Origin: a virus
IMG/VR virus record: IMGVR_UViG_3300034082_004296
Coordinates: 62,001-126,000 of that record
Direction: 5' to 3' (one strand)
DNA length: 64,000 nt
Shown here: one piece after another, positions 6,205-47,953 of the stretch
Layout of the letters: each line of letters starts with the position of its first letter
Position numbering within the stretch: position 1 is the first letter of the stretch
The notes under the pieces: model-generated
What the model was told of the DNA's origin: nothing
What the model saw: the letters and a program-made list of their open reading frames with translations, nothing else
Database searches by the model: none
Translations under genes and position numbers: made by a program

Positions 6205-8172
6205 ATGTCATATTTGTTAAATTATAAAAATTGGAGAGCACTATATGAAAGCCAAACTAATATTTTTGAAGATGGAGAAGACCCATACGGAGGAGTTGGT
6301 ATGATTGATGATACCAAAATCAAAGATAAAGGCACAGTTGATCCATTTGCAGACATGCCAAAAGAGGGCAAGAAAAGATTAGAGTATTTAGTAAATAAAG
6401 CAGGAGACCTAGATTCACAGGCGATAAAAAAGGCAGGAGCAGCGCCAGCAACTTCACTTCTACCCTACGATGCAATAACTGACTGGATGATTACTGCAGG
6501 TAAGCCTACTACAAGGAGCGATGGAAAAGGAGGATATAAAGATTTTTCACCAGAATGGAAGAAAAGATTTAAAGATAGAGAGCCTTCCATGAAATTAGAA
6601 GACTGTATTCAATGTATGCAGTATTGGAATGGAATAATTGATACGACTAAAACAAAAAAAGAAACTATTGAAATAAACGGTAAACCGTATGATGTTGCAA
6701 ATTATGACACTGCTCGAGTAATTAGACAATTGGATCAATTAAGTAATCTCAAAAAAGTTAAATCTTTAGTAGAAGAGGCATGGAAGGCTAAAGGCATTAT
6801 ATATTTTAATACTGGCTCGCCTTCAGAATATGAGTTTGAAGGAACTAAGTATTCTATTGAGAAAGACAAACAGGTAACATTTGACCCAAATTTAATCGTT
6901 GAAAAGAGTAAGATTTTACTAGAAAAAGCGAAAAAAACATTTGTAAACACTGGAAAAACCAGAAGAAATTCAAAGACTGATATGCTTTCTCCAAACCCCA
7001 ATTCAGATAATGTATGGTTTGATACAGGAGAGGGAGGAAAATATTATTCAAAGAAATCTAGAGATCAAACTGGAAGCTTTTGGCTATGGTATCAAATAAT
7101 ATCGGACGATGCTCAATTTCAAAAGTTATTAGCTAGATTCGATGATCCAACTTATGTGAGGACAGTATTCACAAAAATGACGGAGCAGGATAAGATAAAC
7201 ATAATAAAGGGTATTTCGGACGCTGCACAGAAGAAATTTGAGAAAGGATCAGTCGGAGCAATGGAAGGGATCTATGGCGCTACTTCCATCGTGTGGTGGC
7301 CGGTTGAAGCTAAAGAGACGATGCCAAAAACAACGGTCCTTAAACCAGCTAGTCCAGGAATTGACGTTGAATATGAAAATGAATGGGACTTTTCTTGGCC
7401 GTATGCTAAAGAAGGAGGAGTAGGAAAAGAACTTGCAATGACCTACTTTAAGAGTGATTCAGCAATAATACAAGATGGCAAGGACAAAGAGATAGACAAT
7501 GCAGTCAAGCAAATCATGGCTGAAATTAAGAGCAAAAATGGTACTCTTAAATCATTAAAGTATAGAGTAGTAGCATCGACGAGTGACGAACCTTCTAAAT
7601 ATGCAAGCCCTAATAAAGTAGCCGCAAAATACGATATTGCAAATAATCAACCTTTAGTTAGAGACCGTGCTAAGGTAATCGAAACTGCCCTAACTGCTGC
7701 GATCACTGCGAACGGAATTGATCCGACCCTGGTCACTAAAGACGGCGAAGACCTTACTCCTAATAATATTCTAGACGATGGAAGTGCAAAATACCAAGAG
7801 AAAAAATGGATGCGGCTTGATCATAAGGACCCTAGAGCAACGGCTGCTACTGATGCTGAATATAAAGCACTATTCGCTAAACCTAAACATTCAGGGCTTC
7901 TATTTAATATAGTATATACAACCATTGAAAAGGAAAAGAGTGAACCTACTCCTGAAGAAACGACCGTATCTGATTATGAGGTAGTAGGAGAATGGCTATT
8001 CGAGATCAAGTGGGCAGGCGGAGGAAGCTACAAGAAAAAGAGAAGAAGAACTCACACTAGAAGACCGATGAGGGGAATCCCTTGGGATAAATTGTTTCCG
8101 CCTCTTCCTGCAGGTGGAGGATGGAGCGTCGAAGACTTATGTGACGCATATGGTAGATCAGGACCAGGATAG
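6205..8172 (+). CDS. Putative virion protein with capsid-targeting-like N-terminus and OmpA-like segment, 655 aa
   Basis: The product is not recognised as a whole. The N-terminus, LLNYKNWRALYESQ, is almost the same as that of the 514-aa protein downstream and fits a prohead targeting/cleavage signal (aromatic pair followed by LYE, cleavage expected after Glu15). Near residues 410-515 there is an OmpA/MotB-like pattern: an acidic strand start (YFKSDSAIIQDG), the strand YRVVASTSDEPS, then N..LVRDRAKVIETALTAAI, the position where OmpA domains carry their N..LS..RA helix. The C-terminus is basic, with KKKRRRTHTRRP, which could contact DNA. A late promoter precedes it and a hairpin terminator follows at 8206, so it is a single-gene late unit. 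I infer a structural or co-packaged protein; the peptidoglycan-binding role typical of OmpA domains is not proven. Confidence 0.8.
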   Translation: MSYLLNYKNWRALYESQTNIFEDGEDPYGGVGMIDDTKIKDKGTVDPFADMPKEGKKRLEYLVNKAGDLDSQAIKKAGAAPATSLLPYDAITDWMITAGKPTTRSDGKGGYKDFSPEWKKRFKDREPSMKLEDCIQCMQYWNGIIDTTKTKKETIEINGKPYDVANYDTARVIRQLDQLSNLKKVKSLVEEAWKAKGIIYFNTGSPSEYEFEGTKYSIEKDKQVTFDPNLIVEKSKILLEKAKKTFVNTGKTRRNSKTDMLSPNPNSDNVWFDTGEGGKYYSKKSRDQTGSFWLWYQIISDDAQFQKLLARFDDPTYVRTVFTKMTEQDKINIIKGISDAAQKKFEKGSVGAMEGIYGATSIVWWPVEAKETMPKTTVLKPASPGIDVEYENEWDFSWPYAKEGGVGKELAMTYFKSDSAIIQDGKDKEIDNAVKQIMAEIKSKNGTLKSLKYRVVASTSDEPSKYASPNKVAAKYDIANNQPLVRDRAKVIETALTAAITANGIDPTLVTKDGEDLTPNNILDDGSAKYQEKKWMRLDHKDPRATAATDAEYKALFAKPKHSGLLFNIVYTTIEKEKSEPTPEETTVSDYEVVGEWLFEIKWAGGGSYKKKRRRTHTRRPMRGIPWDKLFPPLPAGGGWSVEDLCDAYGRSGPG

Positions 8173-8176
8173 AGGA

Positions 8177-8779
8177 TCACTCTATTCTGTTAGTTAATAA
8201 TAAAGTGGAAGATATTCGATATCTTCCATTTTTGTTTACATAGACCTTTTGATATACTCCACAAAAGGTAGCCTCCTTCTTTAATAGCTTTGAGTTATGA
8301 CCTGGAGACTCGATCCAATAATTTAGGACACACTGTGCAGCTAACTTAGGATCGACTATTTTGGATCCAATATTTTTAAGCCAAAGATCGCCAACTTTTT
8401 GTTTTGTAGGATCCTTAAATACCATTGGTCCAGCATTAAGACAGTTCTCAGCAATCATGCCGCCTGCTCCTAATTTTACGCCAAATCGTTCAACTCTTGT
8501 TTCAGGAGAGACTAGATTTTCAATAAGATGTAGTGAATCATAATTTCGCTCAAAGTGGCCTCCTTCATCGTATATAGACAGGTATTCGCAATGGTGTTCA
8601 CAAGCACGAGTCGCTTTAGAGTCTAGCTTAAGTGGATTGAGCCCATTTTTTTGACGATATTCATTTATGGCATCAAGTAGAAGAGTTGAGAATTCAGCCT
8701 CAGTAGTTAAAAGGTTTTTAGGAACTTGAGAAAAAGTGATCGTAGAGATCAATAGAAGGGTTAATGTTATTAATTTCAT
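8177..8779 (-). CDS. Secreted CAP-domain (SCP/PR-1/YkwD-like) protein
   Basis: A 200-aa secreted protein. I chose the ATG at 8779 because it begins a clean signal peptide (MKLITLTLLLISTITFSQ) and avoids overlap with the divergent gene at 8866; a start at 8935 is possible in frame but would bury the signal. The CAP fold signatures are LLDAINEYRQKNGLNPLKLD, HHCEYLS with HFERNYDS, AENCLNAG, NYWIESPGHNSKLL and ATFCGVY. The family includes secreted proteins of varied function, some binding lipids or acting as proteases. The gene lies antiparallel between two late genes, has its own promoter-like element (8801-8816), and its last codons form the terminator hairpin of the convergent gene. Signal peptides ending in SQ are common in Bacteroidota. 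The role during infection is unknown. Confidence 0.85.
   Translation of the reverse strand: MKLITLTLLLISTITFSQVPKNLLTTEAEFSTLLLDAINEYRQKNGLNPLKLDSKATRACEHHCEYLSIYDEGGHFERNYDSLHLIENLVSPETRVERFGVKLGAGGMIAENCLNAGPMVFKDPTKQKVGDLWLKNIGSKIVDPKLAAQCVLNYWIESPGHNSKLLKKEATFCGVYQKVYVNKNGRYRISSTLLLTNRIE
8206..8234 (+). terminator. Rho-independent terminator of the 655-aa gene, inside the CAP gene
   Basis: A 10-bp perfect stem, TGGAAGATAT / ATATCTTCCA, with a TCG loop is followed by TTTTTG. It lies 34 nt after the stop of the plus-strand gene and within the last codons of the convergent CAP gene (encoding GRYRISST), so one stretch serves both as coding sequence and terminator. Confidence 0.85.
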
Positions 8780-8800
8780 GGCTCTTACATTTACTGTGGA

Positions 8801-8816
8801 TATAGTTATAATACAA
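8801..8816 (-). promoter_or_regulatory. Promoter-like element of the first CAP gene
   Basis: On the minus strand this reads TTGTATTATAACTATA, 21 nt before the ATG at 8779. The second CAP gene has the same 16-mer with one mismatch at nearly the same distance (11011-11026). It differs from the late element and contains a TATTATA core, so an early or middle class promoter, or an operator, is likely. Confidence 0.55.
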
Positions 8817-8837
8817 TAAAAAGAGTCGGTTTTAAAA

Positions 8838-8850
8838 GATAAATAACTAA
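8838..8850 (+). promoter_or_regulatory. Late promoter (ATAAATAACTAAA type)
   Basis: GATAAATAACTAA lies with 19 nt between the ATAAATAA core and the ATG at 8866. It sits back to back with the CAP promoter element at 8801-8816, forming a compact divergent control region of about 90 bp. Confidence 0.8.
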
Positions 8851-8865
8851 AAAACTTATTTAAAA

Positions 8866-10410
8866 ATGGGTGGTTATTTATTAAATTATAACAAGTGGAG
8901 AGCTCTATATGAGTCAGCTCAACTAAATGAGGCAATTGAGATACCTGGATTTAATCTTAAACCGGTAGAAAAAGGAAATAAGCTAGTTTCTAGAGTTTCG
9001 TATCCATCACTTGGAATTAATCCAAAATACGATAATGAGCTAAATTCAATCATGACTAAAACAGTCGGTAAGGAGACAATTCCTAAGTTATTTGTAGTAA
9101 ATGGTAGTGAAGTTGATTCTCAGGCTGAATATCGAAAAATATTTACTGCGCTAGTTTATGGAGTGATCCAATATTTTGAAGATGATACATTAAAGGATAA
9201 GATCGATGATATTGCTCCACAACTTAAATTCACAACAACGATTTCAGGTAAAGTACAATTGTATGGTTCAAGTAGTGGAAGGATTAGTACACAAGGACAA
9301 ATTGTGGAACCGAATACTGGTGGGGCAGTCTATATTTCAAACACAGCTGACACTAAAGAGTCATCAGTAATCGGGATATGTAAATATATCAATGGATTTA
9401 ATTTACAGAATTGGATGACAGGTAATTTCCTACAGATAGATCCAACGAAGATTCTTGATCAAAACAATGTAACTGATTTAACTGGAGCGATGAGAGAGGC
9501 ATATGTTGAAGAACGAGGATTCTTACGATTAGTCAGTCCAGCAAGTGCAAGCATTACTGCTGGAGCAAGGGGTACTGAGACTGAAACTGTTCAAGGTGCA
9601 CAGGCGCAAACTGGTAATGCAGAGATTGCATTTACTGCTGGAAAATCAGATATTGATGATAAAGGAGTTAAAGTTGATGCAAATCACCCTAAAGTAAAAG
9701 AGATTGGTGACAAGATCATAGGGTATTTAGGAAACAATGGTGTAATTGATTCAATGACGTTAACCTCATCTGCAAGTCCAGAATATGGATCGATCCAAAA
9801 CGTTGCAGGCTGGGAAAAATCTTATCCTAAGGGGACTACTGGAACAGCTGATCCTGGTGCAGGAGCGGATGACGCTGGTAAAAACATGAAGCTTGCATAC
9901 GATCGAGGAGTCGTATTTAGTAATGCGTTATACGCTTATTTAGGAGGACATGTAAAACAAAATGCAATTGCCGTTTCTTGGAAGATCTCAACTGATGCTC
10001 CAGGAGGAGGAAAGAATATCACTTACTCAGTTGCTACTAAAAGTGAATCTCCACAAACAATCACAAAAACGACTTACCAAGGAGCAAAAGTATCTGTCAA
10101 AAATGAAGATAACTCAATCGTAGTCTATAAGATTACGTATGATGCGTCAGCAATTGCTAAAAATAAAGATGGACTTTTCACAAAAGAACGAATTGATTAT
10201 AATAAATTAAAAGTAGGTGATAAGATCATAGTATACGCTAAGGACATGAAGACTAAACTTGGAAAAGATGAAGATGAACCTGTCACAGTAAGTAAGGTTG
10301 AAGATAATAATGTTTACGTAAATTATAAAGAAAACACCGATATCTTGATACCTAAAGATAGATACATTAAACAAGTAGGAAAAGCTGAAAAGCAAGAAGC
10401 TGAAATCTAA
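8866..10410 (+). CDS. Putative virion protein with capsid-targeting-like N-terminus and OmpA-like domain, 514 aa
   Basis: The N-terminus YLLNYNKWRALYESAQ matches that of the 655-aa protein almost residue for residue although the rest differs; cleavage would be expected after Glu16 (LYE). Residues about 250-390 resemble an OmpA-like domain: IAFTAGKSDIDDKGVKVD (opening strand with acidic turn), IGDKIIGYLGNNG (helix), MTLTSSASPEYG (the strand that carries G-x-T/A-D in OmpA), then N.KLAYDRGVVFSNAL (the RA helix). The C-terminal 100 residues are lysine-rich with a beta-strand-rich, SH3-like appearance (KLKVGDKIIVYAKD). It has a late promoter upstream and a strong terminator at 10434, so it is another single-gene late unit. 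I infer a co-packaged or structural protein; the family is not recognised. Confidence 0.8.
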   Translation: MGGYLLNYNKWRALYESAQLNEAIEIPGFNLKPVEKGNKLVSRVSYPSLGINPKYDNELNSIMTKTVGKETIPKLFVVNGSEVDSQAEYRKIFTALVYGVIQYFEDDTLKDKIDDIAPQLKFTTTISGKVQLYGSSSGRISTQGQIVEPNTGGAVYISNTADTKESSVIGICKYINGFNLQNWMTGNFLQIDPTKILDQNNVTDLTGAMREAYVEERGFLRLVSPASASITAGARGTETETVQGAQAQTGNAEIAFTAGKSDIDDKGVKVDANHPKVKEIGDKIIGYLGNNGVIDSMTLTSSASPEYGSIQNVAGWEKSYPKGTTGTADPGAGADDAGKNMKLAYDRGVVFSNALYAYLGGHVKQNAIAVSWKISTDAPGGGKNITYSVATKSESPQTITKTTYQGAKVSVKNEDNSIVVYKITYDASAIAKNKDGLFTKERIDYNKLKVGDKIIVYAKDMKTKLGKDEDEPVTVSKVEDNNVYVNYKENTDILIPKDRYIKQVGKAEKQEAEI

Positions 10411-10433
10411 TCTTGACTTTAGATATTTGATAA

Positions 10434-10458
10434 GGGAGTCTAACGACTCCCTTTTTTT
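10434..10458 (+). terminator. Rho-independent terminator of the 514-aa gene
   Basis: GGGAGTC / GACTCCC with a TAAC loop is followed by seven T residues. It lies 24 nt after the stop at 10410 and overlaps the stop codon of the convergent second CAP gene. Confidence 0.9.
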
Positions 10459-10991
10459 GGCATTATATATACGTACCCATTAAATGTGGTCTTGCTCTTA
10501 TCTAGTGAATGAAATGTAGCATCAAACTTGATAGATTTATTTTTACGATCAATCAATATGATCGAAACAATAGTAGCTGCTTCGTCGTTGGGTCGAGAGA
10601 TAGCTGCCTCATGGGTAGAAGAGTGAATCCAACCCTGAACAGCTTTCTGTGCAAGCGCTTCAAGATCGATCTCACCGCGATCACTAATGATATTTGTAAA
10701 AAATGAACCTGACGTTTCGTATCTATATAAACACTCAGCATTGCTCCAATAACCTAGGCTATCTGAATGTCTCTGCATGGGCCGATTAAAATTTCCATAT
10801 GCTACTCTGGTACAAAACTTTCGCATCAGGGAGTCCTCAAATGCCATAAATGGAGAGAGGCTTTGTGTGATTCTATACTCATTAATCTTTTTCCAGATCA
10901 AACTATCAAGCTTAGTAGATTCGATTCTTTCTACTTGTGAAATCGAAGAGAATGAAAGTAATGCAAAAAATATTATTGCAATTGTTTTCAT
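10440..10991 (-). CDS. Secreted divergent CAP-domain-like protein
   Basis: A 183-aa protein with a clear signal peptide (MKTIAIIFFALLSFSSISQ). Behind it comes a CAP-like pattern: IWKKINEYRITQSLSPF (the N-R-L-P helix region), MQRHSDSLGYWSNAECLY (position of the H..N.AEN signature) and AVQGWIHSSTHEAAI (position of the W..SP.H signature). The cysteines and second histidine region are less conserved than in the CAP protein at 8177-8779, so it may have lost activity or diverged in target. It lies antiparallel to the surrounding late genes, with its own promoter-like element at 11011-11026. The two CAP genes probably arose by duplication or were acquired together. Confidence 0.75.
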   Translation of the reverse strand: MKTIAIIFFALLSFSSISQVERIESTKLDSLIWKKINEYRITQSLSPFMAFEDSLMRKFCTRVAYGNFNRPMQRHSDSLGYWSNAECLYRYETSGSFFTNIISDRGEIDLEALAQKAVQGWIHSSTHEAAISRPNDEAATIVSIILIDRKNKSIKFDATFHSLDKSKTTFNGYVYIMPKKGSR

Positions 10992-11010: not shown

Positions 11011-11026
11011 TATAGCTATAATACAA
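11011..11026 (-). promoter_or_regulatory. Promoter-like element of the second CAP gene
   Basis: On the minus strand this reads TTGTATTATAGCTATA, 19 nt before the ATG at 10991, matching the element of the first CAP gene at 15 of 16 positions. The surrounding leader is otherwise not the same, which points to conservation for function. Confidence 0.55.
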
Positions 11027-11046: not shown

Positions 11047-11060
11047 GATAAATAATAAAA
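11047..11060 (+). promoter_or_regulatory. Late promoter (ATAAATAATAAAA variant)
   Basis: GATAAATAATAAAA lies with 17 nt between its ATAAATAA core and the ATG at 11073. It heads the three-gene block 11073-12717. Confidence 0.8.
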
Positions 11061-11072
11061 AATTAAATTGTA

Positions 11073-11306
11073 ATGGCAAATCCAGTTATGAACTACAACC
11101 AGTTTATGTCAGCATTCAAAAAAGCTGAAGCGGGATACCGTGGAAAAGCTAATGTTGCGGCTAACGATAGATCAGGTTCTATGAAGATCAATCAAGGTTT
11201 AGTTGAAGGTCCAGTTAAAGGAAAAGGAACTCCTCAACTTGATAAGTATACTAAACAATACATGACTACTGCAAAGAACAAGAGTGTAGTAGGTAAGAAG
11301 AAGTAA
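11073..11306 (+). CDS. Small basic late protein, 77 aa
   Basis: I do not recognise this protein. It is lysine-rich (ending NKSVVGKKK) and mostly polar. The N-terminus PVMNYNQFMSAFKKAE has the Y-x-x-F pair seen in the other candidate capsid-targeted proteins but lacks a clean (L/I)xE cleavage site. It is the first gene after a late promoter and is followed by two co-directional genes. A small basic protein made late could be a DNA-associated internal capsid protein, but this is only a guess. Confidence 0.75.
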   Translation: MANPVMNYNQFMSAFKKAEAGYRGKANVAANDRSGSMKINQGLVEGPVKGKGTPQLDKYTKQYMTTAKNKSVVGKKK

Positions 11307-11326: not shown

Positions 11327-11584
11327 ATGAATAGAGCTATCATGAGATTTGAGCAATATGCTCTACTTGAAAAGAAGGGCGACCTTAAGAAGCTAGTAGG
11401 TAAGGACGAGGACGAAGAGCTTACGATAAATGATGCCAAGAAGATTGGGGTCAAGGTTGCTAACATGGAAGGAGAGGACAAGAAGAAATACGTTGGTATC
11501 ATCAACTTTTTAGGGGCTTCATGTAACATCTATAACGAGCTTTGGAAGAATTATAAACGAACGAGAGATCGTAAAAAAGACTAA
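11327..11584 (+). CDS. Small late protein with possible capsid-targeting N-terminus, 85 aa
   Basis: An unrecognised charged 85-aa protein, rich in Lys and Asp. The N-terminus IMRFEQYALLEKKGD has an aromatic pair three apart followed by LLE, fitting a gp21-type cleavage site after Glu15. The remainder (DDEELTINDAKKIGVKVAN and following) looks like a short helical or beta-hairpin domain. The stop overlaps the next start (TAATG at 11582-11586), which indicates translational coupling. Confidence 0.75.
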   Translation: MNRAIMRFEQYALLEKKGDLKKLVGKDEDEELTINDAKKIGVKVANMEGEDKKKYVGIINFLGASCNIYNELWKNYKRTRDRKKD

Positions 11585-12717
11585 TGGATAAAGTATTTGA
11601 AAAGGCGTATTCTGATGAGGCTAGCTCAAAGGATGGAGGTTTCATCTTTCAAGCAATCCTAAACTATGACCTGTCCTGGTCAATAGTCAATGGCGAGACT
11701 GCACTCGATCAAAAAAATATCCAAGGTTGGCTTAAGCAAGTAGATGTTTTTCCAGATATGCGGTTTGAAGAGGGCCATGCCACTCTTACCTATGTTATCT
11801 TAAGTGAAGTAAATCTACTTAAAAGAAAGTTTGAGCTTGCGAGCGAGGCAATCAAGAGATTACTTAATCCAGATTATGCTCGAGAAATGGACGGTTTACC
11901 TGCTGAAGTGACACCGGAAGAAGAGACACCAAAACCGGTCGAGACCGACATAACTGACGACGATTGGAACAATCTCTTACCATCTGGTCCAAATCCACCA
12001 TTGGGATTACCTGAGCCACAAAAGAGAATTGGTCAAGGCCAAGTAGCTTTGCCTTCGGGCCCATCTGCTCCACTAGGTCTTCCGCCAGCAACTTCTGAAT
12101 CAAGAGTAAATGAGGTTCTTTTTACTACAAAGTTGACTTCTGCTCAAATCAAGGCGATTAATGACAAGTACTTTAGCAACACTCACTATGAGGTAAGGTT
12201 CACAGTAGATCGAATGGTCCTACGTGAGGTCTCAACCAGTGGACTTGATACGGGTTCTCCCAATGTGACACTTAAACTTTCTACAGGTATGGTGGACACG
12301 CTTGATGGAAAAGCAATCAATAGCTGGGACGGATTTAAGGTAAAGGTATCGGGTAAAAACACTCTAATTAATAATGAGTCGCTGTTGATAGACAACACGA
12401 CTGAACCCAAGATCTCAGAAATAATGGTATATGACCCTATTGAAAACGTGAATGAACTTATCTTTAGGACTATCCTACCTTCTTTAGTATTGGAATTTAA
12501 GGGAGACCGTGTACAAATAGATAACTATTCAAACCGCTCTTCACAAGTATCTATACGATCTAACATTGATTTTGAAAACTTATTTAATATTGAGGAGGCA
12601 CCCGCCTCTGAGATAGTAGACACAGAAGAGGGAGAGGAACCTGAAGAGGAGAATACTGAAGAAACTCAGGAACCAACTACACCCGAACAAAATATTGCTC
12701 CAAAGCAAAATAAATAA
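11584..12717 (+). CDS. Late protein of unknown function, 377 aa
   Basis: I do not recognise this protein. An N-terminal helical region (to about residue 110) is followed by a Pro/Gly-rich linker containing the short repeat LPSGPNPPLGLPEP and LPSGPSAPLGLPPA, then a beta-rich domain (about 160-340) and a strongly acidic, Pro/Thr/Glu-rich tail. It is coupled to the 85-aa gene by TAATG and directly precedes the tail tube gene; the promoter for the tube gene overlaps its last codons. Position suggests a virion component, perhaps tail- or head-associated. Confidence 0.75.
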   Translation: MDKVFEKAYSDEASSKDGGFIFQAILNYDLSWSIVNGETALDQKNIQGWLKQVDVFPDMRFEEGHATLTYVILSEVNLLKRKFELASEAIKRLLNPDYAREMDGLPAEVTPEEETPKPVETDITDDDWNNLLPSGPNPPLGLPEPQKRIGQGQVALPSGPSAPLGLPPATSESRVNEVLFTTKLTSAQIKAINDKYFSNTHYEVRFTVDRMVLREVSTSGLDTGSPNVTLKLSTGMVDTLDGKAINSWDGFKVKVSGKNTLINNESLLIDNTTEPKISEIMVYDPIENVNELIFRTILPSLVLEFKGDRVQIDNYSNRSSQVSIRSNIDFENLFNIEEAPASEIVDTEEGEEPEEENTEETQEPTTPEQNIAPKQNK

Positions 12718-16041: not shown

Positions 16042-17709
16042 CTAAATTTTAATTATTTCCATTTCTGAGAAATGATCCTTCTGATTTACTAATATTCGAT
16101 GATCAAAAAGTTCTTCAGGTAGAGATTCATGAGAAACAACAAAGATTGTCATATTATATTTGGTTGAATACTCTTTAAGGATTGATATTGCACGATAAAC
16201 ATTTGTCTTATCTAAAGAACTAAAGATTTCATCAAGAAACATTACGTTCATGGTGCTGTGCTTCATTTTAATTATTTCAATAAACGCAAGCAATACAATA
16301 AGGTTCATCTTTTTTCGCTGCCCACTGGATAAACTCTCAGGAGAGATTTGCATTCCTAAATAAGTAATATGTGGATCAAACTCATTATCGAATTCAAATG
16401 AAAACTTAAATTCTAATTTTTCAGAGATCTCAAGAATCCTAGCATTTAGGGTAGGAATAATTCGGTCAATCATATCACGTTTGATTCCATTTTCAGATAG
16501 AAGATCATCTAAACTTAGTGAAACTGATCTGGTAGAATTTAACTTATCGATTGCGTGTGAATCCTCGCCTATTTGATCCTCTAAGCTCTTAATTATCCCA
16601 GAGATAGAAGATATTTCTTCTGATCCATCATTCTCCTGAGCAGCCTCTAGTGAGGACTCTAAAGCTTGTAATTCAGCCTTCTTATTGAAATAATTAGAAT
16701 CAATATCACCCCGATCTAATAATAATGAAGTTAAGCTCTCATTGATCTCATCAGCTAATTTTTTCTTATTAACTAGTGATTCTTTTAATTTAGTAATCTT
16801 CTCTTCGATCTTTTCTTTTATCTCGATTGAAGAATCAGATTTTAAATCATTAAGACAGTGAGGACATCGGTTTTTAGCGTATATTGTGAGTCGGTTCGAT
16901 AAGTCTCTAATCTCTGAATTTATTGTAATAACCTCCTCTTGAGCGGCTTTATTTGTCTTGGTTTGAGAATCAATTTTATCTTTAAGTTTAGTCTTTAAGA
17001 CTAGAGCTGCAGATACTTCTACCTTTTTATTGGTGATATCAAGGGTAAGCTTATCAGTAAGAGCCTCCTTCTTTTTGCTCAGTCTCTCTTTTAGTGCCTC
17101 AAGTTGAGCTTCATAAGTTTCTAAATTAGATTGACTGCTTTTTAGAGTAGCTGAGTGAATATCAAGATCAGATTTATTTTCCTTCAATTCCTCCTTTACT
17201 CTACTCCGCATATCAGAAAGAATATCAATTCCAAATATTCGATCAACAATTTTTCGTTTATCATCTTTGCTTAGATTTACAAATGATTTAAAATCATCAA
17301 ATGAAAGACTAATAGTATTACAAAAAACTGAAAATGGAATACGTGAAAGTTCCTCTTCAATAAACTCATCGACTTTTCTCTTATCTGGTAGATTAAATTG
17401 AGAGCCGTTTATTTTAATATCACTAAAGTTTGGATCAATTCCTCTGTCAAGCTCAACAATCTCACCAGAGTTGGTAACAAACTTTACGTTAGTATAGGCA
17501 TTTCGATTTATCCAATTTGGGATATCTTTCATTTTACGAATAGCCGAACGTCCATATATTGAGACGGTCAGCGCTTCTTTAATTGAAGATTTACCTGCAC
17601 CATTTTCTCCCTCAACTAGGATTAGTCCTGGTTTATCGTCAAACTTAAATGTTTGTAACATATTACCATAAGATAATATGTTTCTATATGAAAATTCTAT
17701 TAGTCTCAT
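16042..17709 (-). CDS. 46: Recombination endonuclease subunit gp46 (Rad50/SbcC-like)
   Basis: A 555-aa SMC-type ATPase that with gp47 forms the end-resection nuclease used in recombination-dependent replication. Walker A is GENGAGKSS (34-42). Long heptad-rich coiled-coil arms flank a zinc hook CPHC (near residue 280), and the C-terminus has the ABC signature LSSGQRKKMNL and Walker B VMFLDEIFSSLD. The length matches T4 gp46 (560 aa). It abuts the gp47 gene at 17709, the conserved gene pair order. The leader between it and the thymidylate-synthase-family gene (15949-16041) is AT-rich with no gene. Confidence 0.95.
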   Translation of the reverse strand: MRLIEFSYRNILSYGNMLQTFKFDDKPGLILVEGENGAGKSSIKEALTVSIYGRSAIRKMKDIPNWINRNAYTNVKFVTNSGEIVELDRGIDPNFSDIKINGSQFNLPDKRKVDEFIEEELSRIPFSVFCNTISLSFDDFKSFVNLSKDDKRKIVDRIFGIDILSDMRSRVKEELKENKSDLDIHSATLKSSQSNLETYEAQLEALKERLSKKKEALTDKLTLDITNKKVEVSAALVLKTKLKDKIDSQTKTNKAAQEEVITINSEIRDLSNRLTIYAKNRCPHCLNDLKSDSSIEIKEKIEEKITKLKESLVNKKKLADEINESLTSLLLDRGDIDSNYFNKKAELQALESSLEAAQENDGSEEISSISGIIKSLEDQIGEDSHAIDKLNSTRSVSLSLDDLLSENGIKRDMIDRIIPTLNARILEISEKLEFKFSFEFDNEFDPHITYLGMQISPESLSSGQRKKMNLIVLLAFIEIIKMKHSTMNVMFLDEIFSSLDKTNVYRAISILKEYSTKYNMTIFVVSHESLPEELFDHRILVNQKDHFSEMEIIKI

Positions 17710-18818
17710 TAATCGTATTGTTTGGTGTTTCTCAAAGAATCGTAGATTTCTTTAAAACGGTCTACTATTTTTTGAGACTGATGTGATGGAAGATTCATTA
17801 TCTTTATTCTCTCATCAAGTAGAGTAAAGATATTATATTCATAATTTGAATCTATTTCAATATCGCTCTTTTCTCTTAATTGATCCTTTGAATAAGAGCC
17901 TAATTCAAGACGACGATGTCCATAATCTTTTACAAGTTCAGTAAATTGAGATATTGGAAACTTTTTTGAAAATTCAGATTCTATTAAAACATCAATAAAA
18001 TTATTATTGAAGAGTTCACGAATATCTTCAGGAGTCTCATTTAATAGCTCAAAGATATCAAATTTTAGATGTTTTGGAGAAAAGTGATTTGGCACAAATT
18101 TTTCTTGTACTTCTTTTCCACTAACATCTAATACGTAGAAACCTTTAGTGTTTCCTCGATCTCCTCTATCCATTTCATATGGAGTTCCAACATAGAGAAC
18201 ATTTCCTTTTTCTTGGCGAATATGAATATGTCCAGAATAAATTCTAGAGAATGATTGGATATCTTCCGGTTCTAGGCCATGCTCAAGCTTTTGAACTTTA
18301 TTAAAGTTAAATCCTTTAAAATCAGTATGGCAAAATACGTATCTAGCTGAGATATTCTTTTGAATTTGAGCTTTAAGTTCAGGTAGATTCTCAATCCACG
18401 GTAACATTAGAAACTTATGAGAATTTATCGATAATATTTCCGGTTTTGAGTATACTTGGAAATTAGGATATATTTTATCAAATCCTTCTAGTGAATGAGT
18501 ATCAGTTCGATCTTTATAGTATACGTCATGGTTACCAAGAATTACAAAGACTCCTCTTTTAAATTTTTTAGTAAGTACTTCAGCTATCTTTAGGGATAGT
18601 TTATAGATACGTACATTAGTAGATTCCCTAACGTGATTCCAATCACCAACTTGGACAAGTATATCTGTTTCTGGATTAAATCCTTCTTCATCAATCATTT
18701 TAATAAAATGATCAATTAGATATTGACTTTGAATTTCAGACCATTCAACTGAATTGTTTCGTATACCTAGGTGAAGATCACCAAGTACAAATATTTTTCG
18801 AATATTGTCTAATTTCAT
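17709..18818 (-). CDS. 47: Recombination endonuclease subunit gp47 (Mre11/SbcD-like)
   Basis: A 369-aa metallophosphoesterase nuclease partner of gp46. The phosphodiesterase motifs are GDLHLGI (13-19), QVGDWNH, VILGNHDVYY, FCHTDFKG and YSGHIHIRQ, which supply the two-metal centre. The length is near T4 gp47 (339 aa). The start overlaps the 75-aa gene stop by 4 nt and the stop touches the gp46 start, so the two subunits are translated together. Confidence 0.95.
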   Translation of the reverse strand: MKLDNIRKIFVLGDLHLGIRNNSVEWSEIQSQYLIDHFIKMIDEEGFNPETDILVQVGDWNHVRESTNVRIYKLSLKIAEVLTKKFKRGVFVILGNHDVYYKDRTDTHSLEGFDKIYPNFQVYSKPEILSINSHKFLMLPWIENLPELKAQIQKNISARYVFCHTDFKGFNFNKVQKLEHGLEPEDIQSFSRIYSGHIHIRQEKGNVLYVGTPYEMDRGDRGNTKGFYVLDVSGKEVQEKFVPNHFSPKHLKFDIFELLNETPEDIRELFNNNFIDVLIESEFSKKFPISQFTELVKDYGHRRLELGSYSKDQLREKSDIEIDSNYEYNIFTLLDERIKIMNLPSHQSQKIVDRFKEIYDSLRNTKQYD

Positions 18819-24178: not shown

Positions 24179-24409
24179 TTAATCGGTTATTTTAAAATTT
24201 ATCTCTTCTTTTAGTTTTTCAATGTCTAAATCATCTGCAGTGTCTGCATTTAGGACAGTCAGTGTCAGCTTTTCGATATCACTGGATCGATATGCTATCA
24301 CATAATAGTCAGTTAATTTATCTTCTAATTGAGCAATTGACTTATTAATGGGTTGTAGTTGAGTTATTGAATCTTCCGGAAAAGCAACTACGAGTATTGG
24401 CTTTGCCAT
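24179..24409 (-). CDS. Hypothetical protein, 76 aa
   Basis: A small acidic protein (MAKPILVVAFPEDSITQL at the start) with an alpha/beta appearance. Its ATG overlaps the polymerase fragment's stop (TAATG), so it is translationally coupled to it. It contains no polymerase motif, so it is not the missing C-terminal half. The function is unknown. Confidence 0.7.
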   Translation of the reverse strand: MAKPILVVAFPEDSITQLQPINKSIAQLEDKLTDYYVIAYRSSDIEKLTLTVLNADTADDLDIEKLKEEINFKITD

Positions 24410-25830
24410 TATTTTGAATTTTTTAACTGTTTAATCTCACCCTGAGTCTTGATACGTTCATCATATAGACGAGTAAGAATTTTCCTAGCAACTGAATCTG
24501 TTTTACTTGAAAACATAGTATCGTTCTTAGTATGGATTTCAGTACCGTCTTTTTTAACTTTATCGGTTTTTCCAAGATAGGTATCTGGTGAGATATTAAA
24601 TTGAATTTGTATGTTAGGATACATTGATGAAAAGTCATAGCATGCAACTGCACCATAATATCCAGGAATTGGATCCTTTACATAGGCGCCGGCATAGGTT
24701 CCATCAATAACTTCTTCTCCCCAAGGAAGTTTCATCATCTTCATGTTCTTGTTTAAGAACTCACGACACATTAGAATTTCAGCAATATACACTGGACTAA
24801 ATACTTTATTTACTTCAACTTGAGCGACGTTTGCCATAGCGAAGGCAACATCCATTAGAGCTAGCTTATCTTCGATTAGTTTAACTAGAATAACGTCAAT
24901 TACGTTATACATAGTAAAAAGATAAGTATCTTTTTGAAACTCTCTAAATGAAGGATAATCGTGGTGCAATTTAGCTGTACCTAGGACAAGATCTGCAATG
25001 TAATCAAGCTTATAGTTTTCTACAACTTTATAAGGCTTCATTTTTTCAAAGACTTGCATGTAATCAAGAACTCCTAAGTGAGTAGGAATCTTGACTTTAG
25101 AAACAGTTGATCGAGTTGGCATTTTTTCCATCATATCGATCTTTAGGTTCTTACCGCGATTCATCAGATACTTCCAGTCAAATTCTGTTACATTCCAGCC
25201 AGTCACAAAATTAAAGTGGGGCATAATCTTATGGAAATAGAATTCCATTAATTCATCTTCACTCTTAAAGAACTTATATTTAATTTTGAAATCTTGATTA
25301 AAGAGGCGAGCATCTTCTGGTTTTTTAGGAACGGTTTTTCTAAAGTATTCATTGACCTCTTTTTCCATTTGAACGATCTGTTCTGGTGCAAGACCATCAG
25401 GCTGATCTTCGGTATTTAAAATAGAGAGAATGTAGGTGATGTTGTCTTCATTACAGAATGAGATCAACCCAACTGGCATTCTAGCTTTGTCTGGTTCTGG
25501 AAAAGAGTCATCAATTAATTTAATCTCAATATCGAGATATGTTTTCTTAGGAAAATTATCAAAGTTATAGACTAGCTCAAGTTCTTCAGCCGTTAATTTT
25601 TCTTGAATTAACTCTTGAATTCTAAACTGGTTCATGTATTGTCCTTGAGACTGACCCTTTTTTACAAACTTTCCATTCCAATTTTTAGTAGTGGTTGGCG
25701 TTTGAGATTCTACCCAATTATACATTTCATGGTCCATTAGTCTTTTTCTAATAAATTCTATTTTTCCATTATTGTTATAATAAGAAATTGTTAAAATATT
25801 ATCATTTAATACTTCGGCGCCAATTATCAT
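24409..25830 (-). CDS. 43: Family B DNA polymerase, N-terminal half (exonuclease domain to motif A); split gene
   Basis: 473 residues corresponding to the first half of a gp43-like polymerase. The 3'-5' exonuclease motifs are TYLDIEI (Asp100/Glu102), GWNVTEFDWKYL (211-222) and YNVIDVILVK (308-317). Polymerase motif A is CYDFSSMYPN (397-406, Asp399), followed by QFNISPDTYLGK. The protein then ends at ...RIKTQGEIKQLKNSK, just before the position of motif B (K...NS.YG). Motif C (DTD) is also absent, and no other frame in the window carries them. T4 gp43 is 898 aa. The stop is coupled to the next start, so this looks like a real gene end, not a sequencing error; a second polypeptide must supply the palm and fingers remainder. 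Split gp43 genes are known in some Aeromonas T4 relatives, and a separated exonuclease and polymerase in Rhodothermus phage RM378. Confidence 0.93.
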   Translation of the reverse strand: MIIGAEVLNDNILTISYYNNNGKIEFIRKRLMDHEMYNWVESQTPTTTKNWNGKFVKKGQSQGQYMNQFRIQELIQEKLTAEELELVYNFDNFPKKTYLDIEIKLIDDSFPEPDKARMPVGLISFCNEDNITYILSILNTEDQPDGLAPEQIVQMEKEVNEYFRKTVPKKPEDARLFNQDFKIKYKFFKSEDELMEFYFHKIMPHFNFVTGWNVTEFDWKYLMNRGKNLKIDMMEKMPTRSTVSKVKIPTHLGVLDYMQVFEKMKPYKVVENYKLDYIADLVLGTAKLHHDYPSFREFQKDTYLFTMYNVIDVILVKLIEDKLALMDVAFAMANVAQVEVNKVFSPVYIAEILMCREFLNKNMKMMKLPWGEEVIDGTYAGAYVKDPIPGYYGAVACYDFSSMYPNIQIQFNISPDTYLGKTDKVKKDGTEIHTKNDTMFSSKTDSVARKILTRLYDERIKTQGEIKQLKNSK

Positions 25831-30423: not shown

Positions 30424-30723
30424 CTATTCAAATTCTTCTAGAGAGATATCGTTAGGGTCATCTAAGATTGCGATAATCTCATTTGCCATTATGACATAGT
30501 GTTTTTCTCCTTTGTATGTTAGCTCTAATCCAGCATAACGATTAAAAAGGATTTGATCTCCAGGCTTAACCACCATCTCGTTGTGTTTAGTACCGTCTCC
30601 AGTATTAACAACAATTCCGATATTTGGTTTTTTGACTGCTTTTTCAGGAAGCATAATTCCTTGACTCGTGCGAGTCTCCTTTTGTTTAGGTTTAACTAAT
30701 ACTCTTTCGTATAGAGGTTTCAT
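30424..30723 (-). CDS. groES: GroES-like co-chaperonin
   Basis: A 99-aa co-chaperonin. KPLYERVLVKPKQKE at the N-terminus, the mobile loop with TSQGIMLPEK, then GIVVNTGDGTKHNEMVVKPG and ILFNRYAGLELTYKGEKHYV are all typical of GroES, and the conserved GIMLP resembles the bacterial I-V-L tripeptide that docks on GroEL. T4 gp31 is a diverged GroES analogue, while this one looks much more bacterial. It partners the phage's own GroEL (39936-41561) or the host's. Its start overlaps the RNase H stop (ATGA), and it ends at a bidirectional terminator. Confidence 0.93.
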   Translation of the reverse strand: MKPLYERVLVKPKQKETRTSQGIMLPEKAVKKPNIGIVVNTGDGTKHNEMVVKPGDQILFNRYAGLELTYKGEKHYVIMANEIIAILDDPNDISLEEFE

Positions 30724-33627: not shown

Positions 33628-34377
33628 TTATATTGAATTAACTATATGATCTACTTTGCTTGAGAAAGTAGCGTCTGGATATAGTTCTAGAGCTCGAGTA
33701 ACCCATACTTCCATGACATGATCGTATTCTGACTCACTCATGTAATTAGATTCAATAAAAGGCAGGAGATAATCGTCAAAAACTTGATCGATTGGACAGT
33801 TTTGCTCCTTTGAGCTATAGTACATTCCTTCAATCATTGATTCTATCTCGTCCATCAATAGAAAGTAACGATAACTCTTTTTAGCTCCTTCCCTTTTGTG
33901 TTTACTGCTAACCTGAGAATTAAAAGGCGAGCGGTTCATTCCTAACTGATCTAGGTGATTTGTTTCGTGTGATAAAATATCAATTAGTCGATAGTGTAAT
34001 TTACTATATAGGATCGGCTCTTCTCTAGGATTTAGGATAATATGAACTATTATTTTTGGAACAGCTACTGTAGATCTACTCATTCTAGTATTAGCGTCTA
34101 TACTGTATCCAAGTTTATCAAAGTTTATCTTTTCCCAAGGAAGACCCTCAAAGTGACTGTCTTCTTCTAAGTCAGGTGAAGAGTCTCTACGAACATTTAG
34201 GATCAAATCAAAGGTAAATGGTTCAATAAATTCCATTCCAGAAAAAACAGAATACTCTGTGCTCTCACCTGTAGGTGAAGTACGAATCTTTGTGATTAGA
34301 GTTTGAGCCAATCTTTTGATAAACTCTTCCTTGCTATCCACGTTTTCATTTATGAATTGATTGAAAGACTTAATCAT
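33628..34377 (-). CDS. Putative HExxH metalloprotein with capsid-targeting-like N-terminus, 249 aa
   Basis: The N-terminus MIKSFNQFINENVD closely resembles T4 capsid-targeting sequences of the M-K-T-Y-Q-E-F-I-x-E type, with I-N-E ending at Glu11 as the expected prohead protease site. HETNH at 137-141 in DILSHETNHLDQLG is an HExxH zinc-metallopeptidase motif; DEIESMIEGMYY about 30 residues downstream could give the third ligand. The rest is not assigned to a family. It is the last gene of a three-gene cassette (35112 to 33628) that begins with a late promoter on the minus strand, and all three members carry the same kind of N-terminus. I infer a protease-like protein packaged in the head, possibly injected with DNA; activity is unproven. 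Confidence 0.75.
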   Translation of the reverse strand: MIKSFNQFINENVDSKEEFIKRLAQTLITKIRTSPTGESTEYSVFSGMEFIEPFTFDLILNVRRDSSPDLEEDSHFEGLPWEKINFDKLGYSIDANTRMSRSTVAVPKIIVHIILNPREEPILYSKLHYRLIDILSHETNHLDQLGMNRSPFNSQVSSKHKREGAKKSYRYFLLMDEIESMIEGMYYSSKEQNCPIDQVFDDYLLPFIESNYMSESEYDHVMEVWVTRALELYPDATFSSKVDHIVNSI

Positions 34378-39935: not shown

Positions 39936-42320
<2,385 letters not shown>

Positions 42321-47554: not shown

Positions 47555-47953
47555 ATGGCTAGAAAAAAGAAAGGGGACACCCATTATATTAACAATAGAG
47601 AATTTACAGCAGACATCATTGAGTGTAAAAAGAACGGTGAGCTTTCAAAGTTCTCAGTAGACTGTTTTATTTCGCTTGCAAATAGAGCGGCTGACCGTCT
47701 CTATTTTAGAGATTATCGTGACCGAGAAGACTGTATTCAGTCTGCAATCCTAGACTGCCTAAAATACTGGAAGAGCTTTGATGAGACCAAGATGATTTCT
47801 CCAAACGCTTTTGCATACTTTACACAAATTTGCAAAAATGGATACGCTAAAGAGTGGAAAAAGATCCACAAAAAGACGGGTCTTGATGCTGATGACACCT
47901 TAGAGTTCATCTCCATTAGTACTAGCGGAGAAAATTCAGTATACAGCATATAA
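47555..47953 (+). CDS. 55: Late transcription sigma factor (T4 gp55-like)
   Basis: A 132-aa protein similar to gp55, the T4 sigma factor that directs host RNA polymerase to late promoters. Common features are HYINNREFTADIIECKKNGE at the N-terminus (T4 has YVNNKELLQAII), SVDCFISLANRAADRL, and the sigma region 2-like core SFDETKMISPNAFAYFTQIC then KNGYAKEWKKI (T4: [21 protein letters not shown]). It is shorter than T4 gp55 (185 aa) and seems to lack part of the C-terminal tail that binds the sliding clamp (gp45). It lies directly before the structural block and in the same window as the ATAAATAA elements it would recognise. Confidence 0.87.
   Translation: MARKKKGDTHYINNREFTADIIECKKNGELSKFSVDCFISLANRAADRLYFRDYRDREDCIQSAILDCLKYWKSFDETKMISPNAFAYFTQICKNGYAKEWKKIHKKTGLDADDTLEFISISTSGENSVYSI

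Follow-up and report, generated by a model that had tools for sequence, protein, structure and literature searches.

CAP-domain genes paired with genes for OmpA-like proteins in divergent phage lineages, among them a T4-like phage of Flavobacteria-type bacteria

In a stretch of viral DNA 64,000 nucleotides long (the window; bases 62001-126000 of the IMG/VR virus record IMGVR_UViG_3300034082_004296, itself 176,210 bases in length), two minus-strand genes for CAP proteins with predicted secretion, CAP1 and CAP2, each converge with a late gene on the plus strand, V655 in the case of CAP1 and V514 in that of CAP2. The product of V514 has an OmpA-like fold, that of V655 probably carries an OmpA-like domain, and about eight lineages of divergent phages show the pairing of CAP with OmpA-like genes. 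A tentative explanation, to which we would give somewhat less than an even chance, is that the OmpA-like proteins are virion cargo delivered to the host envelope and that the exported CAP proteins are their periplasmic antagonists, acting in superinfection exclusion. An earlier, sequence-only reading of the region had recognised both the CAP genes and their convergence with late genes, which are upheld here, and had described the genes as inserted in the virion region. They do sit among late genes, but this description understated the arrangement and overlooked the partner: instead of being an arbitrary virion gene, the late gene that each CAP gene faces is OmpA-like, as judged from a structural model for V514 and from a motif for V655.

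The open reading frames (ORFs) of both CAP genes are real, and the CAP assignment is carried by a Pfam match for one and by structure prediction for the other. CAP1 (8177..8779, minus strand; 200 aa) has its preferred start at ATG 8779, a longer frame to 8935 requiring TTG, and scores above the cut-off for Pfam CAP (PF00188; 42.8 bits, cut-off 21.1, E 1.1e-10). CAP2 (10440..10991, minus strand; 183 aa) gave no match in the Pfam search, and Pfam CAP is matched by its phage relatives in L041, L045 and L068. An AlphaFold model of CAP2, built from a 17-sequence alignment with a predicted local distance difference test score of 81, has the alpha-beta-alpha fold of CAP proteins, a positive outcome for CAP2 of the structure check asked for in the sequence-only reading. 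It matches the bacterial SCP domain 4ifa with a Z of 15.6 (root-mean-square deviation 2.0, 116 residues aligned), followed by 4d53 (Z 15.5), 4h0a (Z 14.1), GAPR-1, PR-1 and venom allergens; CAP structures, amounting to tens of entries, score far above all other structures. The CAP-site histidines (H75 and H127 in CAP2) are unchanged across 17 phage CAPs, whilst of the CAP-site glutamates E86 is invariant within the CAP2 group and the second differs between groups. Both N-termini resemble signal peptides of the Bacteroidota style (CAP1 ...FSQ/VPK, CAP2 ...SISQ/VER), as called by a heuristic of hydropathy and an SQ-type cut. Purifying selection acts on both genes, with ratios of non-synonymous to synonymous substitution of 0.17 for CAP1 and 0.07 for CAP2 against L002. 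CAP1 and CAP2 are best described as putatively Sec-exported CAP (SCP) proteins. With bacterial SCP/CAP proteins (PF00188; 4ifa, 4d53, 4h0a) they have in common the CAP fold, predicted secretion and the CAP-site histidines; they differ in being phage-encoded, in standing behind an early-type promoter and in having an OmpA-like late gene as partner.

Both partners begin with a short N-terminal tag, MGGYLLNYNKWRALYE/S in V514 (8866..10410, plus strand) and MSYLLNYKNWRALYE/S in V655 (6205..8172, plus strand). Residues 245-393 of V514 adopt an OmpA-like fold in an AlphaFold model, with a Z of 10.6 to 7rjj (K. pneumoniae OmpA), a Z of 10.1 to TagL of the type VI secretion system and a Foldseek value of 9.8e-4 to 5u1h. 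This domain, at 0.67-0.92 identity, is flanked by fast-evolving sequence, the N-terminal half being only 0.40-0.61 identical. The candidate region of V655 (STSDE...NNQPLVRDRA, about residues 400-520) has both residues of the OmpA-type motif D/P...NxxLxxxR[AG], which among 192 phage ORFs occurs in V655 and V514 only, against 0.06 expected in shuffles; as the pattern was written after V514 and V655 had been seen, this count is supporting evidence and no blind test. The V655 domain gave no match among PDB sequences, and an OmpA profile built from four phage partners raised neither V514 nor V655 above background, so that V514 rests on its model and V655, a probable OmpA-like protein, on the motif.

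CAP2-like genes were found at 20 viral loci. The source records are metagenomic, some of them only fragments, and because some are near-identical, lineages rather than loci were counted. On this basis a CAP gene is paired with an OmpA-like gene in about eight divergent lineages, seven of them with convergent genes. Facing the CAP gene is either a V514 relative or the gene for a Pfam OmpA protein, and this holds for the window group, L012/L038/L084, L037/L083, L039/L040, L041/L068 and L045; V514 relatives occupy this position in L037, L012, L038, L039 and L040, and the Pfam OmpA matches are those of L045 (4.8e-6), L068 (9.4e-7) and L041 (9e-4). In L067 the OmpA-like gene (Pfam OmpA 5e-4) lies directly upstream of the CAP gene and is co-directional with it. 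Wherever the sequence at an examined CAP locus was long enough, the partner is OmpA-like (V655 by its motif), mostly with an N-terminus that resembles a capsid-targeting one, as discussed below. A reciprocal search from V514 brought in two new loci, L083 and L084, each with a convergent secreted CAP, and a further one, L088, which stops short of the expected CAP position. L012, L038 and L084 have a single CAP gene between two V514 paralogues, one on the divergent promoter and one convergent, and CAP1, lying between V514 and V655, has this same geometry. In G002, CAP1 and V655 are missing from their usual site, and homologues of the two face each other about 50 kb from CAP2-V514 (G002/L066), so the pair has moved as a unit. 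The recurrence of the pairing in such different phages is the reason for thinking that the CAP and OmpA-like proteins probably act on each other. No paper on phage CAP/OmpA pairs was found in the literature, and a search of 50,697 phage records for relatives in isolated phages gave no match for CAP1, CAP2 or V514.

The two CAP genes also have a promoter-leader in common. A 16-mer, TTGTATTATA(A/G)CTATA, lies on the CAP strand about 20 nt (19-21) before each ATG, as had been read from the sequence: the CAP1 core is TTGTATTATAACTATA (8801..8816, minus strand), in which GTATTATA is an early-type -10 element, and the CAP2 core is TTGTATTATAGCTATA (11011..11026, minus strand). At fewer than three mismatches these are the only two sites in the window, and the next match in the 176-kb record, with one mismatch, again precedes a secreted gene. 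Chance occurrence was rejected from the match counts in window and record and from a comparison of the 50-nt leaders with shuffles: among about 200 genes, the leaders of CAP1, CAP2 and two more antiparallel secreted genes are mutual best matches, above every shuffle. Those two genes, about 55 kb off, are the only others with a near-identical promoter-leader; they encode small secreted proteins of no Pfam family (G000/L022:16776-17219 and G000/L022:17878-18297, both on the minus strand), each convergent with a tagged late gene, in a second cluster (G000:16-18.3 kb) where tagged late genes alternate with secreted genes. A wider early-type motif, [AG]GTATWATA, of which the 16-mer core is one variant, precedes 10 of 203 genes but 0.25% of random genomic stretches. 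Late-type promoters, GATAAATAA, stand on the plus strand before V514 (8838..8846) and before the next late gene (11047..11055), and V77, a small conserved late gene (MANPVMNYNQFMSAF...; 11073..11306, plus strand), has its divergent promoter region in common with CAP2. The GATAAATAA motif is present in 20 of 203 upstream regions against 0.8% of controls and resembles the T4 late consensus TATAAATA, which is read by gp55 (PMC1524935). A gp55-like late sigma factor (47555..47953, plus strand; phrog_234, E 1e-19) is the expected reader of the GATAAATA promoters. In relatives, an RpoD-like sigma factor adjoins tagged late genes (L012:2800-3708, L084:1926-2822).

Divergent early and late promoters between each CAP gene and the next late gene are thus supported by sequence class, and the proposal that the CAP genes follow a programme different from that of the late genes agrees with their early-type promoters, which are unlike the late GATAAATA motif. 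Of the unit read earlier as late gene, terminator, opposite CAP gene and divergent promoters, the arrangement does repeat; the terminators are at most plausible, since the hairpins at the convergent 3' ends, among them a hairpin with a T-run after V514 that overlaps the CAP2 3' end (10432..10453, plus strand), number three in the region against 3.1 in shuffles. The term duplicated module likewise fits the architecture and not the genes. In a tree, phages L041, L068 and L045 supply the CAPs that cluster with CAP1, and CAP2 falls in with those of L037, L012, L038 and L039 and with Flavobacteriales chromosomal proteins; several long branches leave the deep order unsure, but this placement in different parts of the tree excludes a recent tandem duplication, and a profile comparison aligns the N-terminal third only. 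CAP1 and CAP2 are, on this phylogenetic evidence, different CAP lineages with the promoter-leader alone in common. As to host genes, relatives of CAP2 are found as secreted proteins on four Flavobacteriales contigs of metagenome-assembled genomes, in three cases as tandem arrays, two of which lie beside yidC, whilst a search for chromosomal relatives of CAP1 gave none. A Flavobacteriales host is a natural inference.

These features lend themselves to a different interpretation, in which the convergent pair of a late and an antiparallel early gene between near-identical bidirectional promoters is a mere recombining unit, and the CAP protein a host-derived moron that acts by itself on the envelope of the host, for instance through lipid or peptide binding, with no functional link to its partner. 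Near-identical promoter-leaders are indeed carried by unrelated ORFs, CAP2 relatives do occur on Flavobacteriales chromosomes, and related phages swap CAP1/V655, rhomboid and small secreted genes in their slots: in L005, L006, L009 and L010 the place of CAP1/V655 is filled by a gene for a rhomboid-family membrane protein (L005:9130-9864, L006:10179-10913, L009:10253-10987) antiparallel to another tagged late gene, and in L006 also by a small secreted gene facing another such gene. Free recombination of this kind would not readily account for a CAP partner that is non-random, being OmpA-like across about eight lineages that differ in their promoters, in one of them co-directionally, or for the pairing of the non-CAP genes with other tagged partners; we regard this interpretation as possible, though doubtful. 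T4-type mobile regulatory cassettes have reportedly been described by Arbiol et al. in 2010. The likeness to these lies in repeated promoter segments as possible drivers of neighbour-gene swapping, and the difference in that the repeat here is bidirectional (late/early) and the exchanged unit a convergent pair.

That the OmpA-like proteins may be carried in the head is suggested by their tag. Of the 206 ORFs of this phage, 20 have the pattern [FYL]xx[FWY](xx)[ILVM]xE near the N-terminus, within 24 residues, compared with 1.4% of internal windows; the pattern ends in hydrophobic-x-Glu, a protease-like site, and heads unrelated late proteins, including in L012 and L038 a GDSL hydrolase, an NlpC/P60 protein and V514 relatives. 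The N-termini of V514 and V655 thereby resemble the T4-type capsid-targeting sequence, a short N-terminus that is conserved among otherwise unrelated internal proteins and removed by the prohead protease (PMC3012670, PMC5694885, PMC9958956), and the two proteins are probably packaged into the head. A short N-terminal tag, a prohead-protease-like site and unrelated, fast-evolving late proteins are common to T4 and to this phage, which differs in its tag sequence (e.g. LLNYKNWRALYE), in having about 20 tagged ORFs, and in the OmpA-like and enzyme domains these carry. Alternatively, the tagged OmpA-like proteins could be ordinary external proteins of the neck, tail or baseplate with a tag that is not capsid-targeting, as their genes adjoin tail-tube-like and other late genes; given the enrichment of the tag, its presence on unrelated enzymes, its hydrophobic-x-Glu ending and a head maturation protease encoded by the phage, this seems improbable. 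The roughly 20 tagged, otherwise unrelated ORFs form a candidate head-cargo list for a Bacteroidota T4-like phage, with examples at 6205-8172, 8866-10410 and 33628-34377 of the window and, elsewhere in the record, at L022:6955-8367, 11511-12128, 16122-16709 and 17304-17870 and at L024:4797-6755. In the OmpA-like partners L041:6555-7583 and L068:4510-5544 an acidic tag region is followed by a signal-peptide-like hydrophobic stretch (GWLGRIAGLLGITVASFSSALSQ), which prohead cleavage might expose.

Under the proposal of cargo and antagonist, the OmpA-like protein would enter the prohead by its N-terminal tag during head assembly, be trimmed by the prohead protease and, at infection, reach the envelope, where it would anchor at the peptidoglycan and aid the entry of genome or cargo. 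The CAP protein, made early and exported, would occupy the periplasm of the infected cell and bind or remove the OmpA-like protein brought in by a related phage that arrives later, resulting in superinfection exclusion. Two known systems are comparable in part. T4 Spackle (gp61.3) is an early exported periplasmic protein that inhibits the gp5 lysozyme and confers superinfection exclusion (PMC7677548); the likeness is that of an early, exported periplasmic protein with a proposed action on an envelope-penetrating virion component of the superinfecting phage, but no CAP character is described for Spackle, whose target is the gp5 lysozyme, whereas the partner here is OmpA-like, tagged and encoded convergently beside the CAP gene. 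SieA of P22, an inner-membrane protein expressed from the prophage, acts in superinfection exclusion with ejection proteins as its proposed target (PMC10883804); it too is a phage envelope protein whose proposed target is delivered from the head, but unlike the CAPs it is inner-membrane and prophage-expressed, with neither CAP fold nor convergent pair.

The recurrent pairing would also fit sequential action in a cooperation, in which the exported CAP and the OmpA-like protein act jointly on the envelope of the same host, the CAP processing or loading the OmpA-like protein at entry or both helping release; the NlpC/P60 and GDSL hydrolases that adjoin the pair in L012/L038 and bear this tag too are in keeping with such a role. 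The partners in the window, however, have no signal peptide and carry a prohead-type tag and late promoters, so one would not expect products of the same infection to encounter each other in the periplasm ahead of release, and we consider cooperation unlikely. Several observations weigh against the cargo-and-antagonist proposal itself. In OmpA domains an Asp and an Arg form the usual peptidoglycan-binding pair, which binds diaminopimelate; in V514 the Arg is present (NMKLAYDRG) but the Asp position reads SASP rather than TD, so that peptidoglycan binding is not assured and the protein is classed as OmpA-like in fold. The V655 domain gave no Pfam match, its support being the motif and a weak hhalign profile match (E 0.0017). 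The pairing could also be a product of cassette architecture, as the slots of the CAP genes can hold rhomboid and small secreted genes beside tagged genes that are not OmpA-like, and the Flavobacteriales chromosomal relatives of CAP2 have no OmpA-like neighbour, implying that CAP2-type proteins can act without an OmpA-like protein.

What the CAP and non-CAP slots probably have in common, to judge from their sequences, is a scheme in which a tagged late protein, probably head-carried, is faced by an early, envelope-directed protein. A more specific version, which we hold with considerable reserve, is that of two-component cognate pairs, in which a head-packaged OmpA-like protein delivered to the cell wall is countered specifically by its early, exported CAP, the two genes form a convergent cassette that is bounded by bidirectional early/late promoters and open to exchange, and several such pairs (CAP, rhomboid, small secreted) occur across one phage group.

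The phage itself is, by its recognised genes, T4-like, with a probable host among Flavobacteria-type bacteria. The T4-like set comprises dCMP deaminase, thymidylate synthase, an SbcC-like (gp46-type) protein, a DnaB-like helicase, the gp55-like late sigma factor, tail sheath, head maturation protease and major head protein; near the CAP genes, the minus strand carries replication and nucleotide genes and the plus strand virion genes. A Family B DNA polymerase, judged by eye from the sequences, is apparently split into two minus-strand ORFs that lie about 53 kb from each other in the record (window 24409-25830 and G000:32896-34332, the latter equal to L023:12896-14332). The early strand also appears, from sequence, to carry genes for GroEL-like and GroES-like chaperonins (39936-41561 and 30424-30723 of the window, minus strand), and a patatin-like phospholipase gene (L022:5267-6226; Pfam 2.5e-26) is preceded by a late-type promoter.

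CAP proteins are widespread, and the role of most bacterial members is unclear; to our knowledge, exported phage proteins acting in the periplasm have rarely been tied to a named target. The conserved phage pair of CAP and OmpA-like proteins offers a concrete candidate binding partner for a CAP domain, and it suggests that T4-like phages of Bacteroidota have a family of head-targeted proteins.

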